Both the position numbers and the translations under genes were made by a program. Below are positions 48,969-63,350 of a DNA stretch of 64,000 bases, piece by piece. Each line of letters opens with the position of its first letter. Positions within the stretch are counted from its first letter, which is position 1. The DNA comes from Pseudomonas syringae KCTC 12500 (GTDB taxonomy: Bacteria > Pseudomonadota > Gammaproteobacteria > Pseudomonadales > Pseudomonadaceae): NCBI RefSeq assembly GCF_000507185.2, contig NZ_AYTM02000002.1, positions 4,189,501 through 4,253,500 on the forward strand, in the 5' to 3' direction. The notes beneath the pieces were generated by a model, which was given only the letters and a program-made list of their open reading frames with translations, did no database searches and was not told the DNA's origin.

Positions 48969-49627
48969 GTAGTACCGTCGGTTTCCGGGCTGCCGGAAAC
49001 GGCGTTCGGCACACACGACTTCTCACGGTCGGTGTCAGGGCACGTCAGGAGTGGTTGGACACTCCAGTGTCTAGCGAGGTCCTCGCCCAGAGGGGGCGGA
49101 GGGTCGCGACGACGTTTCCTGCTTGCTGTGGTGGCATAAGACACCCCTTTCAGCAAAAGCTTTGTCAGGAGGAGGAATCGACCATCGGTAGCGGACGAGA
49201 TGAAGCGTCTAGAACAAGCCTTGTGCTACACAGTCCGATGGTTGTGCGTCTCCACCCTACACGTATCCCTGATAATTCGGGTGCTGCCGCGCGCAGAATC
49301 CGCAGCGGGTTGGCATTTACCGCGACCTTCGATAGGGAAGGTCGCGCATCATGGCTTGAGGCGTTGTTCCCGAAGCATTCGCTCGTAGCGTCTGAAAGCG
49401 ACTGCACTTTGTGAACTGGCCATGAACTGTCCGCACTGGCCGCGAGCTGTCTGCTCTGCTGTCAGGCGTGTTTCCGGCCTCATGTCACCTGCGCTTGTTA
49501 CGTTTTCAGCGTGCTCCGTTGTCACCGAACACTGCGTAGGACGGCCTCCCGTCCTTGTGAATTGCGTTGGTCAGGGCCGGTTGTCAACCGTTGGTCCGCT
49601 GTCCGGCCGCTTTTGGCGGCGTTCGCG
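48969..49627 (-). promoter_or_regulatory. Very long structured 5' leader of rne
   Basis: No gene is supported between 48969 and 49685. The rne promoter at 49628-49656 implies a leader of about 650 nt. It holds several stem-loops, the clearest being CGCGACCTTC/GAAGGTCGCG (10 bp, 49321-49346), and a GCCGCC/GCGGC hairpin close to the predicted 5' end (~49607-49617). In E. coli the rne leader senses RNase E activity. Confidence 0.65.
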
Positions 49628-54926: not shown

Positions 54927-55865
54927 ATGTCTGCATCCCTCGCATTCGTCTTTCCGGGTCAAGGATCGCAATCGCTCGGTATGCTCGCCGAACAAGGCGC
55001 GCAACATCCGCTGATCCTCGACACTTTCGAGCAGGCTTCCGAAGCCCTCGGCTATGACCTGTGGGCATTGACTCAGAACGGTCCTGCCGAGCTGCTCAAT
55101 CAGACCGACAAGACCCAACCGGCCATTTTGACCGCTTCGGTTGCCTTGTGGCATGTGTGGCTGGCCGAGGGCGGTGCGGTTCCTGCATTCGTCGCCGGTC
55201 ACAGTCTGGGTGAATACAGCGCACTGGTAGCCGCGCAAAGCCTGAGCCTGGCCGACGCCGTAAAGCTTGTCGAGCGTCGCGGCCAGTTGATGCAGGAAGC
55301 GGTACCAGCGGGTCAGGGTGGCATGGCCGCCATTCTCGGGCTCGATGATGCCGACGTTATTGCAGCCTGCGCCGAAGCGGCACAGGGTGAGGTCGTCAGT
55401 GCTGTGAATTTCAACTCGCCGGGCCAGGTGGTGATTGCCGGTTCCGCCGAGGCTGTCAAGCGTGCCATGGAGCTGTGCAAGGCCCGTGGCGCCAAGCGCG
55501 CTTTGCCATTGCCGGTCAGCGTGCCATCGCACTGCGAACTGATGCGCCCGGCCGCCGAGCGTTTCGCCGAGGCCGTTGAAGCCATCGAATGGCAAGCGCC
55601 GGAAATTGCGCTGGTACAGAACGTCAGCGCCAGTGCCGTCAGTGATCTGGCGACGCTCAAGCGTGATTTGCTGGAGCAGTTGTACAAGCCGGTACGCTGG
55701 GTCGAATCCATTCAATGCCTGGCCAGTCGCGGTGCGACCCAGCTTGTGGAGTGCGGTCCGGGCAAAGTGCTGGCCGGTCTGAACAAGCGTTGCGCCGACG
55801 GCGTGATGACCTACAACCTTGATACCCCGGACGCCTTTGCCGCCGCGCGCGCGGCACTGGCCTGA
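54927..55865 (+). CDS. fabD: Malonyl-CoA:ACP transacylase FabD
   Basis: The 312-residue product has FVFPGQGSQSLGML at the N-terminus, nucleophile Ser in AGHSLGEYSALVAAQ (~92) and the catalytic His in SVPSHCELMRPA (~200). It loads malonyl groups onto AcpP. It follows plsX after a 116-nt gap and is first of the fab cluster. Confidence 0.97.
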   Translation: MSASLAFVFPGQGSQSLGMLAEQGAQHPLILDTFEQASEALGYDLWALTQNGPAELLNQTDKTQPAILTASVALWHVWLAEGGAVPAFVAGHSLGEYSALVAAQSLSLADAVKLVERRGQLMQEAVPAGQGGMAAILGLDDADVIAACAEAAQGEVVSAVNFNSPGQVVIAGSAEAVKRAMELCKARGAKRALPLPVSVPSHCELMRPAAERFAEAVEAIEWQAPEIALVQNVSASAVSDLATLKRDLLEQLYKPVRWVESIQCLASRGATQLVECGPGKVLAGLNKRCADGVMTYNLDTPDAFAAARAALA

Positions 55866-55880
55866 TTAGGAGAAGCCTGC

Positions 55881-56793: not shown

Positions 56794-56810
56794 CCACTAG
56801 GAGTTAAAAC
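56794..56810 (+). promoter_or_regulatory. acpP ribosome-binding site with antisense match to the sRNA
   Basis: CCACTAGGAGTTAAAAC contains the Shine-Dalgarno AGGAG and is almost identical to plus-strand 63258-63273 (CCATTAGGAGTAAAAC), so the minus-strand sRNA from there can pair with it: 15 pairs, one bulge, one mismatch. Confidence 0.7.
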
Positions 56811-56815
56811 TAGGT

Positions 56816-57052
56816 ATGAGCACCATCGAAGAGCGCGTCAAGAAAATCGTTGCAGAGCAACTTGGCGTCAAACAAGAAGAGGTTGTCAACACTGCTTCTT
56901 TCGTTGAGGACCTGGGCGCTGACTCCCTGGACACCGTCGAGCTGGTAATGGCTCTGGAAGAGGAATTCGAGACCGAAATCCCGGACGAAGAAGCGGAAAA
57001 GATCACTACCGTTCAAGCAGCAATCGACTACGTCACTAGCCATCAGGCTTAA
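56816..57052 (+). CDS. acpP: Acyl carrier protein
   Basis: The 78-residue acidic protein carries the phosphopantetheine Ser in the [10 protein letters not shown] motif (Ser38). It shuttles growing acyl chains for FabD, FabG, FabF, PlsX and the lipid A enzymes, several of which are encoded in this window. It has its own promoter upstream and a terminator-like hairpin downstream, so it can be made in large excess over its neighbours. Confidence 0.98.
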
Positions 57053-62395: not shown

Positions 62396-63181
62396 ATGCT
62401 TGTAGATTCCCATTGTCACCTCGATCGCCTTGACCTTGCCCAGCACGACGGCTCTCTGGATGCCGCACTCGACGCCGCCCGCGGCAGAGGGGTCGGGCAT
62501 TTTCTCTGCATCGGTGTCAGCGCCGACAATGCGGGTGCGGTCAAGGCACTCGCCGAACGCTATGCGGATGTCGATTGCTCGGTGGGCATTCATCCGCTGG
62601 ACATGAAGCCCGGCGAAATGCCGCCCCTGGACTGGTTGCTCAAGGAGCTGGATCACCCGCGGGTGGTAGCGATTGGTGAGACCGGTCTGGACTATCACTA
62701 CGAACCTGAAGCGGCCGAGCTGCAACAGGCGTCTTTCCGGGTTCACCTCGAGGCGGCCAGAATCACTGAAAAACCAGTGGTCATCCACACTCGGGGCGCA
62801 CGTGCCGATACCCTCAGCCTGCTGCATGAAGCGGCCTTGCCCCACGCCGGTGTCCTGCACTGTTTCACCGAAGACTGGGAGATGGCCAAGGCCGCGCTTG
62901 ACCTGGGTTACTACATTTCGCTGTCCGGTATCGTGACCTTTCGCAACGCCGATGCCCTGCGCGACGTTGCAAGGCAGGTGCCCGCCGATCGTCTGCTGGT
63001 CGAGACCGACTCCCCGTACCTCGCGCCCATCCCGTATCGGGGCAAGCCGAATCTGCCCCAGTACGTACGTGAGGTGGCCGAGTTTCTGGCAATGCTGCGA
63101 GGCGAGTCCTACGAGCGCTTTGCCGAGCAGACCACGGCCAATTTCGCTCGCCTGTTTCCGCTGGCGCACGTTCAGCGCTGA
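62396..63181 (+). CDS. TatD family metal-dependent hydrolase
   Basis: The 261-residue TIM-barrel enzyme has MLVDSHCHLDRLDL (His metal ligands), AIGETGLDYHYEPE, VVIHTRGA, HCFTEDW and VETDSPYLAP. TatD proteins are 3'-5' DNA exonucleases or D-aminoacyl-tRNA deacylase-like hydrolases; this is the YcfH-type paralogue found next to holB and pilZ. The start is ATG 62396, close to the pilZ stop. Confidence 0.93.
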   Translation: MLVDSHCHLDRLDLAQHDGSLDAALDAARGRGVGHFLCIGVSADNAGAVKALAERYADVDCSVGIHPLDMKPGEMPPLDWLLKELDHPRVVAIGETGLDYHYEPEAAELQQASFRVHLEAARITEKPVVIHTRGARADTLSLLHEAALPHAGVLHCFTEDWEMAKAALDLGYYISLSGIVTFRNADALRDVARQVPADRLLVETDSPYLAPIPYRGKPNLPQYVREVAEFLAMLRGESYERFAEQTTANFARLFPLAHVQR

Positions 63182-63217: not shown

Positions 63218-63336
63218 AAAAAAAACCCGGATTCTGGGGGGTGAAGCCGGGTTAAGACCATTAGGAGTAAAACAAAGGCGCGCTAGTCCTTTGGCGCCTC
63301 TACTGCCGAGTCATTTGGGGAATGATGACGCGGCAG
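63218..63336 (-). ncRNA. rgsA: RgsA-like small regulatory RNA
   Basis: On the minus strand a sigma-S-like -10 (CAATACTTAA, 63350-63341) is followed by a ~120-nt transcript with three stem-loops and an intrinsic terminator. Stem-loop one: CTGCCG+GTCAT/ATGAC+CGGCAG at 63303-63336. Two: GGCGC pairings at 63276-63299. Terminator: AACCCGG/CCGGGTT at 63224-63253 followed by at least six Ts. In P. aeruginosa the sRNA RgsA (locus PA2958.1, ~120 nt, RpoS-dependent, Hfq-bound) lies next to the tatD homologue, as I recall. The open part TGTTTTACTCCTAATGG is antisense to the acpP ribosome-binding site. It occupies most of the 304-bp gap, which has no protein gene. Confidence 0.72.
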
Positions 63337-63340
63337 CAGC

Positions 63341-63350
63341 TTAAGTATTG
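63341..63350 (-). promoter_or_regulatory. Sigma-S-type -10 element of the sRNA
   Basis: Minus-strand CAATACTTAA matches nine of ten positions of the extended sigma-S consensus CTAYRCTTAA. The transcript start should fall near 63336. Confidence 0.6.

Follow-up and report, generated by a model that had tools for sequence, protein, structure and literature searches.

RgsA, a small RNA (sRNA) whose gene lies in the 64,000-nucleotide stretch of the Pseudomonas syringae KCTC 12500 genome analyzed here (the window), is predicted to pair through its linker with the ribosome-binding site of acpP, the gene for acyl carrier protein. In our judgment, RgsA is quite likely an RpoS-dependent, Hfq-using sRNA that pairs with the acpP Shine-Dalgarno sequence and thereby lowers acyl carrier protein when growth stops. 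RgsA would accumulate in stationary phase in an RpoS-dependent manner, its single-stranded linker GUUUUACUCCUAAUGG would pair with the Shine-Dalgarno region of the acpP mRNA, and this pairing would block ribosome binding, such that less acyl carrier protein would be made as growth stops.

The rgsA Locus

The minus-strand sRNA that an earlier note on this DNA had invoked is indeed RgsA (P16). Family RF00628 matches at 63422-63227 on the minus strand with 192.5 bits (E 7.5e-47), compared with a gathering threshold of 88.4 bits. The Rfam model starts 87 nt upstream of the RgsA start reported for P. syringae DC3000 (PMC3709562). As the model is thus over-long at its 5' side, the transcript was put at about 63336-63218 on the minus strand, with an inferred start and a length of about 119 nt; RgsA of P. 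fluorescens has a size of 120 nt (PMC2375449). The model also pairs positions of about 39-43, near its start, with positions of about 162-166. Since positions 39-43 fall upstream of the reported transcription start, one strand of this helix would be promoter DNA and the other transcript, so that the helix probably arises artificially from the excess length of the model.

Both a putative RpoS-type promoter and a putative intrinsic terminator are present, recognized by sequence alone in the former case and by sequence and fold in the latter: the -10 element CAATACT at 63344..63350 (-) and a stem CCCGG...CCGGG followed by a U run at 63218..63251 (-). An RpoS-dependent RgsA promoter has been published (PMC2375449; PMC3709562). 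The plus-strand gene tatD (62396..63181; assigned as an open reading frame and by synteny) converges on rgsA, and a tatD homologue has likewise been described as the downstream neighbor of rgsA (PMC2375449). The conserved rgsA locus is marked by tatD or by pilZ preceding tatD.

The linker GUUUUACUCCUAAUGG, nt 64-79 of RgsA, is located at 63258..63273 on the minus strand, where the plus strand reads CCATTAGGAGTAAAAC; it is proposed as the pairing stretch on the basis of its sequence, the predicted duplex and accessibility, and its conservation outside the family. Its counterpart is the Shine-Dalgarno region CCACTAGGAGTTAAAAC at 56794..56810 (+), which precedes acpP (56816..57052, +), an open reading frame of 78 amino acids named from its own sequence. 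A distance of 6.45 kb separates the two sites, and the two genes point toward each other. Elsewhere in the window, an rne-II 5' leader element was found at 48978-49266 (-; 292.9 bits), an ordinary occurrence.

Predicted RgsA-acpP Duplex

Pairing was computed with RNAduplex between nt 60-86 of RgsA and positions -40 to +15 of acpP; a version with full-length RgsA and 70-nt leaders was dropped because long, unrealistic duplexes dominated it. The earlier note had described two complementary sequences forming 15 pairs with one bulge and one mismatch. Both lie at the positions given above, and the best duplex reproduces this contact exactly, with 12 + 3 = 15 pairs, a bulged U on the mRNA side and a single A/C mismatch, arranged in the blocks AAAAC/GUUUU, UAGGAGU/ACUCCUA and CCA/UGG. 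It extends over mRNA positions -22 to -6 and sRNA nt 64-79, such that in the prediction the ribosome-binding site including the Shine-Dalgarno sequence is covered, again as claimed. The hybridization energy is -17.1 kcal/mol, or -12.4 kcal/mol when opening of the mRNA is included and opening of the sRNA is not charged. When RgsA is folded, the predicted unpaired probability is 0.87-0.99 for 11 of the 16 positions that take part in the duplex and 0.26-0.36 for the other five (64, 72, 73, 78 and 79). Counted from the inferred start at 63336, nt 71-77 read UCCUAAU and lie in the middle of the duplex.

Strength of the Pairing in This Genome

As background we used 1109 ORF starts from the window and 60 further stretches of 20 kb, together about a fifth of the genome. 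These ORFs were mechanically called and had at least 100 amino acids, acpP being added, and up to three start codons were tried for each, which favors the background. On this scale, acpP ranks 12th by total energy and 16th by hybridization energy. Its pairing is thus better than that of the gene background, in line with the best family median among eleven genes reported below, and 11 sampled ORFs have a better total energy. When the core ACUCCU:AGGAGU was kept fixed, an energy as good as that of acpP was reached in 3.2% of the trials when the sRNA flanks were shuffled and in 12.6% when the mRNA flanks were. Much of the pairing strength therefore resides in the Shine-Dalgarno sequence, which ribosomes conserve in any case; the contribution of the flanks is modest in this genome.

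A genome-wide search (6.15 Mb) for CCATTAGGAGTNAAAAC with up to three mismatches returned 13 matches vs. 34 for the backward pattern used as control; the sole match with a single mismatch is acpP. The acpP site is real and strong, while the exceptional status implied by its description as a near-perfect target was overstated: apart from the 11 better ORFs, partial complementarity exists in relatives in which no RgsA was found, and the pairs in loci L057, L059 and L061-L063 of other family members are far better (see below).

The gene just upstream of acpP, fabG, contains in its Shine-Dalgarno sequence (55865-55872, +) the element ATTAGGAG, an 8-letter match to the RgsA linker. This site, reached from a start codon further downstream in the ORF, takes rank 6 of 1109 by total energy, and with a median of -14.3 kcal/mol (n = 56) fabG is second best among the eleven cluster genes in the family.

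Conservation of the Pairing Within the Pseudomonadaceae

Out of 92 other RF00628 matches in the family, 60 were analyzed, each in a stretch chosen to include acpP along with rgsA, which makes 61 loci with the window. Both core and acpP are present in 56; left out of the pair counts were L069, whose stretch has neither core nor acpP, L079, whose stretch lacks acpP, and L086-L088, which have lost the core. The median over the 56 loci is -19.3 kcal/mol for acpP vs. -9.2 to -14.3 kcal/mol for ten neighboring genes (n = 29 loci for mltG, 52 for pilZ and 56 for the others), and in 29 loci acpP is the best-pairing of about 18 ORFs in the stretch.

Flank shuffling was extended to the 40 distinct pairs of the family. 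The sRNA-flank shuffle is beaten at p < 0.05 by 14 of them and both shuffles by nine, whereas 26 beat neither. Every tested pair from genera g2, g97, g100, g101, g103 and g110 has p > 0.09, and the flanks of g3, which would be the genus of P. aeruginosa, where repression was published, are marginal (p 0.07 and 0.10). Duplexes extended beyond the core stem from L057, L059, L061 and L062 (g1) and L074 (g109), with -27 to -30 kcal/mol and p ≤ 0.004 in both shuffles; the same computation yields -27 to -30 kcal/mol for L057, L059 and L061-L063 vs. -18.0 kcal/mol for the window.

Compensatory changes across relatives, for which the earlier note had suggested to look, were not detected at the level of 12 genera: own pairs average -19.2 kcal/mol vs. 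-18.9 kcal/mol for swapped ones (permutation p 0.20). As the RgsA core is nearly fixed, little covariation is possible there; the flanks of RgsA and acpP vary, yet without tracking each other across genera. Equal lengths of the U run and the A run in the two partners, seen in part of g1, were considered as compensation and rejected, as they fit a single lineage event and as L062, L060, L066 and L067 are counter-examples. Conservation of the pairing, the other check that had been proposed, thus gave a divided answer. Among eleven genes acpP pairs best in the Pseudomonadaceae, while own pairs are no better than swapped ones and part of the complementarity is kept where no RgsA was found.

Relatives Apparently Lacking RgsA or With an Altered Linker

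In 26 genomes of the family RF00628 had no match, and 20 of these underwent a second search, with laxer filters and with the core as an additional query (two yielded no acpP and four are less than 90% complete). At E 0.5, weak matches appeared in four of the 20 (best E 0.006) and also in seven of 14 unrelated control genomes, while the core search returned one core-like match with two mismatches in the same 20 genomes. RgsA is therefore taken as absent from them, barring a strongly diverged copy. The acpP leaders were scored for two pattern-defined flanking elements, CCA upstream and AAA downstream. Among 18 leaders from these relatives, three keep both elements, ten CCA and eight AAA; one of them (g108) pairs with the window linker at -26.2 kcal/mol. 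Both elements occur in 40 of the 56 loci with RgsA, in three of the 18 leaders without it, in none of the three loci with a lost core and in three of 47 leaders from other families. The presence of RgsA is accordingly associated with that of both leader elements, in counts that follow genera and are inseparable from descent.

Altered linkers occur in two genera. In L086, L087 and L088 (g101), the rgsA locus lies beside tatD and has kept CAATACT and a terminator-like end, while the ACUCCUAAUGG core is lost; judged from these remnants, this appears to be a natural loss of the pairing stretch. In L075-L078 (g110), RgsA has kept ACUCCUAA and the following AUGGUCUU is changed to forms such as CGCUUUU, such that the UGG part of RgsA is altered while acpP retains CCA.

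The RgsA Linker Beyond the Pseudomonadaceae

In a sample of 194 genomes from the order, searched with stricter filters at E 0.001 or better, RF00628 was found in 55, eight from the family and 47 from other families, and was without a match in the remaining 139; ten matches exceed the Rfam cut-off. Of the 47 matches from other families, 26, distributed over ten families, contain the exact 15 letters ACTCCTAATGGTCTT, 41 contain a relaxed form of the linker core and six contain none, figures to be read in light of the fact that RF00628 includes the core and copies with a conserved core are therefore detected more easily. An acpP-type protein was present in all 47 genomes. In 22 of them, from eight families, rgsA and acpP face each other as in the window, at a distance of 4.4-13.8 kb; in the other 25, rgsA is located far away on the acpP contig (nine) or on a different contig (16). 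This shared place supports even weak RF00628 matches. In 30 of the 47, the core is preceded at 40-150 nt by the element [C/T][A/G]ATACT.

The exact 20 letters GTTTCACTCCTAATGGTCTT were found in at least 117 stretches from genomes of named species, the matches listed including Microbulbifer, Haliea, Halioglobus, Parahaliea, Endozoicomonas, Zooshikella and a few Pseudomonas. Among the 117 matches listed, pilZ lies within the fetched stretch (up to 8 kb) in 60, and an RpoS-type -10 element [C/T][A/G]ATACT is located 40-140 nt upstream in 95. Among the same matches, acpP has a median of -12.4 kcal/mol (n = 19, some of them Pseudomonas), which is no different from its neighbors. Paired with the window linker, acpP leaders from other families average -14.6 kcal/mol (n = 47) vs. 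-21.3 kcal/mol in the family (n = 56). We met no published RgsA outside the Pseudomonadaceae, Marinobacter included, in what was a weak test of its absence from the literature.

Other Targets and the Age of the acpP Contact

Reviews of Lu et al. (2016) report that in P. aeruginosa RgsA also represses fis by pairing (PMC8395346; PMC9308961). As for acpP, an overlapping stretch of the linker is used; unlike the acpP site, which is the Shine-Dalgarno region, the fis site lies in coding sequence. The best predicted duplex in the fis start region of our genome involves the first fis codons (-14.3 kcal/mol). Thirty dusB-fis loci were compared, with an automatic choice of start codons that is plainly wrong in some, e.g., G207 and G147. 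By eye, with no duplex computed, the pairing codon stretch was recognized in this genome, in G257 (g1) and in G094 and G122 (g3), and none was seen by eye outside the Pseudomonadaceae. As the pairing codons are confined to the family on this visual evidence, fis was rejected as the ancestral target.

A search for near-perfect ancestral targets in 22 genomes from other families (CCATTAGGAGTGAAAC, up to two mismatches) returned 32 matches apart from RgsA vs. 73 for the backward-pattern control, the RgsA locus itself being recovered in all 22 genomes, in 19 of them without mismatch. Nor does any neighboring gene stand out as a candidate in the named exact-core loci listed (four to 57 per gene).

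Microbulbifer, Haliea, Endozoicomonas and some Pseudomonas share the linker GUUUCACUCCUAAUGGUCUU unchanged, frequently at the acpP-to-pilZ/tatD locus. As it is constant over this range while acpP pairs less well outside the family and pairing fis codons were seen by eye only within it, the linker is more widely conserved than the fit to either published target. The acpP target therefore looks younger than the pairing stretch of the sRNA. It seems somewhat more probable than its opposite that RgsA is an RpoS-type sRNA distributed widely over the Pseudomonadales, with the fixed linker GUUUCACUCCUAAUGGUCUU, and that the acpP and fis targets were acquired later, in the Pseudomonadaceae, by changes in the mRNAs. 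Alternatively, acpP may be an old target that was lost in other families. If the acquisition was late, something other than acpP and fis would keep the seed fixed, and the linker may represent an anti-Shine-Dalgarno-like seed that stays constant while mRNAs gain and lose flanking complementarity. What is new here is the wide conservation of the linker in other families of the Pseudomonadales, along with the shared rgsA-acpP arrangement. It opens the question for which function an old sRNA under RpoS control was selected and also allows one to ask how mRNAs become new targets.

Alternative Explanations

The anti-Shine-Dalgarno sequence of 16S rRNA resembles the RgsA core ACUCCU, and acpP is expected to be highly translated. 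Because of this resemblance the core fits any strong AGGAGU ribosome site, and the complementarity described here could mainly be a by-product, with the selected targets of RgsA located elsewhere. The 11 sampled ORFs above acpP in total energy are consistent with this explanation, as are the absence of genus-level covariation, the part-complementary acpP leaders, that of g108 among them, from relatives in which no RgsA was found, and the ordinary acpP energies in the listed exact-core loci of named species. We nevertheless consider it improbable, since direct pairing in P. aeruginosa is published according to reviews, since extensions past the core in L057, L059, L061, L062 and L074 exceed both kinds of shuffled flanks and since acpP pairs better than all other ORFs around it in about half of the family loci.

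The pairing itself is symmetric, and our computed results agree with either direction of control. Instead of being repressed, the acpP mRNA might mainly act as a sponge, holding down the level of RgsA while cells grow. The authors of PMC5686131 speculate along these lines that loss of acpP1 mRNA frees RgsA. Such a role as the main one is very improbable in our view, given that AcpP synthesis in P. aeruginosa is lower with RgsA according to the reviews PMC8395346 and PMC9308961. Repression of acpP by RgsA remains the preferred reading, and we infer that it also operates in this genome.

Comparison With Known Systems

The same sRNA has been studied as P16/RgsA in P. syringae DC3000, a member of the same species group, where RpoS control and interaction with Hfq were reported (PMC3709562). 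That 2013 study states that an mRNA target of RgsA had not been reported before and gives PSPTO_5535 as a candidate from IntaRNA; the words "acyl carrier" do not occur in its text.

For P. aeruginosa, the statement of the earlier note that RgsA repression of acpP has been reported agrees with the literature as it is reviewed. RgsA is stated to lower AcpP directly by base pairing, with Hfq taking part (PMC8395346 and PMC9308961, reviewing Lu et al., 2016, Mol Microbiol 102:244), and repression of acpP by pairing is also stated in PMC5686131. A peak of Hfq in CLIP is located at the RgsA 3' end (PMC6890931). The two reviews give nt 71-77 as the conserved pairing region, and one of them names a second region, nt 141-175, that is irreconcilable with an sRNA of 120 nt. 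The mechanism proposed for this genome is plausible and had been published earlier for P. aeruginosa; our finding extends that regulation to a relative with base-level detail and is in itself ordinary sRNA biology. The two systems share the sRNA family, the target gene and, as far as nt 71-77 can be mapped, the region of the sRNA. They differ in the flanks, GUUUU in the sRNA and UAAAAC in the mRNA (15 pairs) being found here vs. GUUAC and GAAAAC in g3, the presumed genus of P. aeruginosa.
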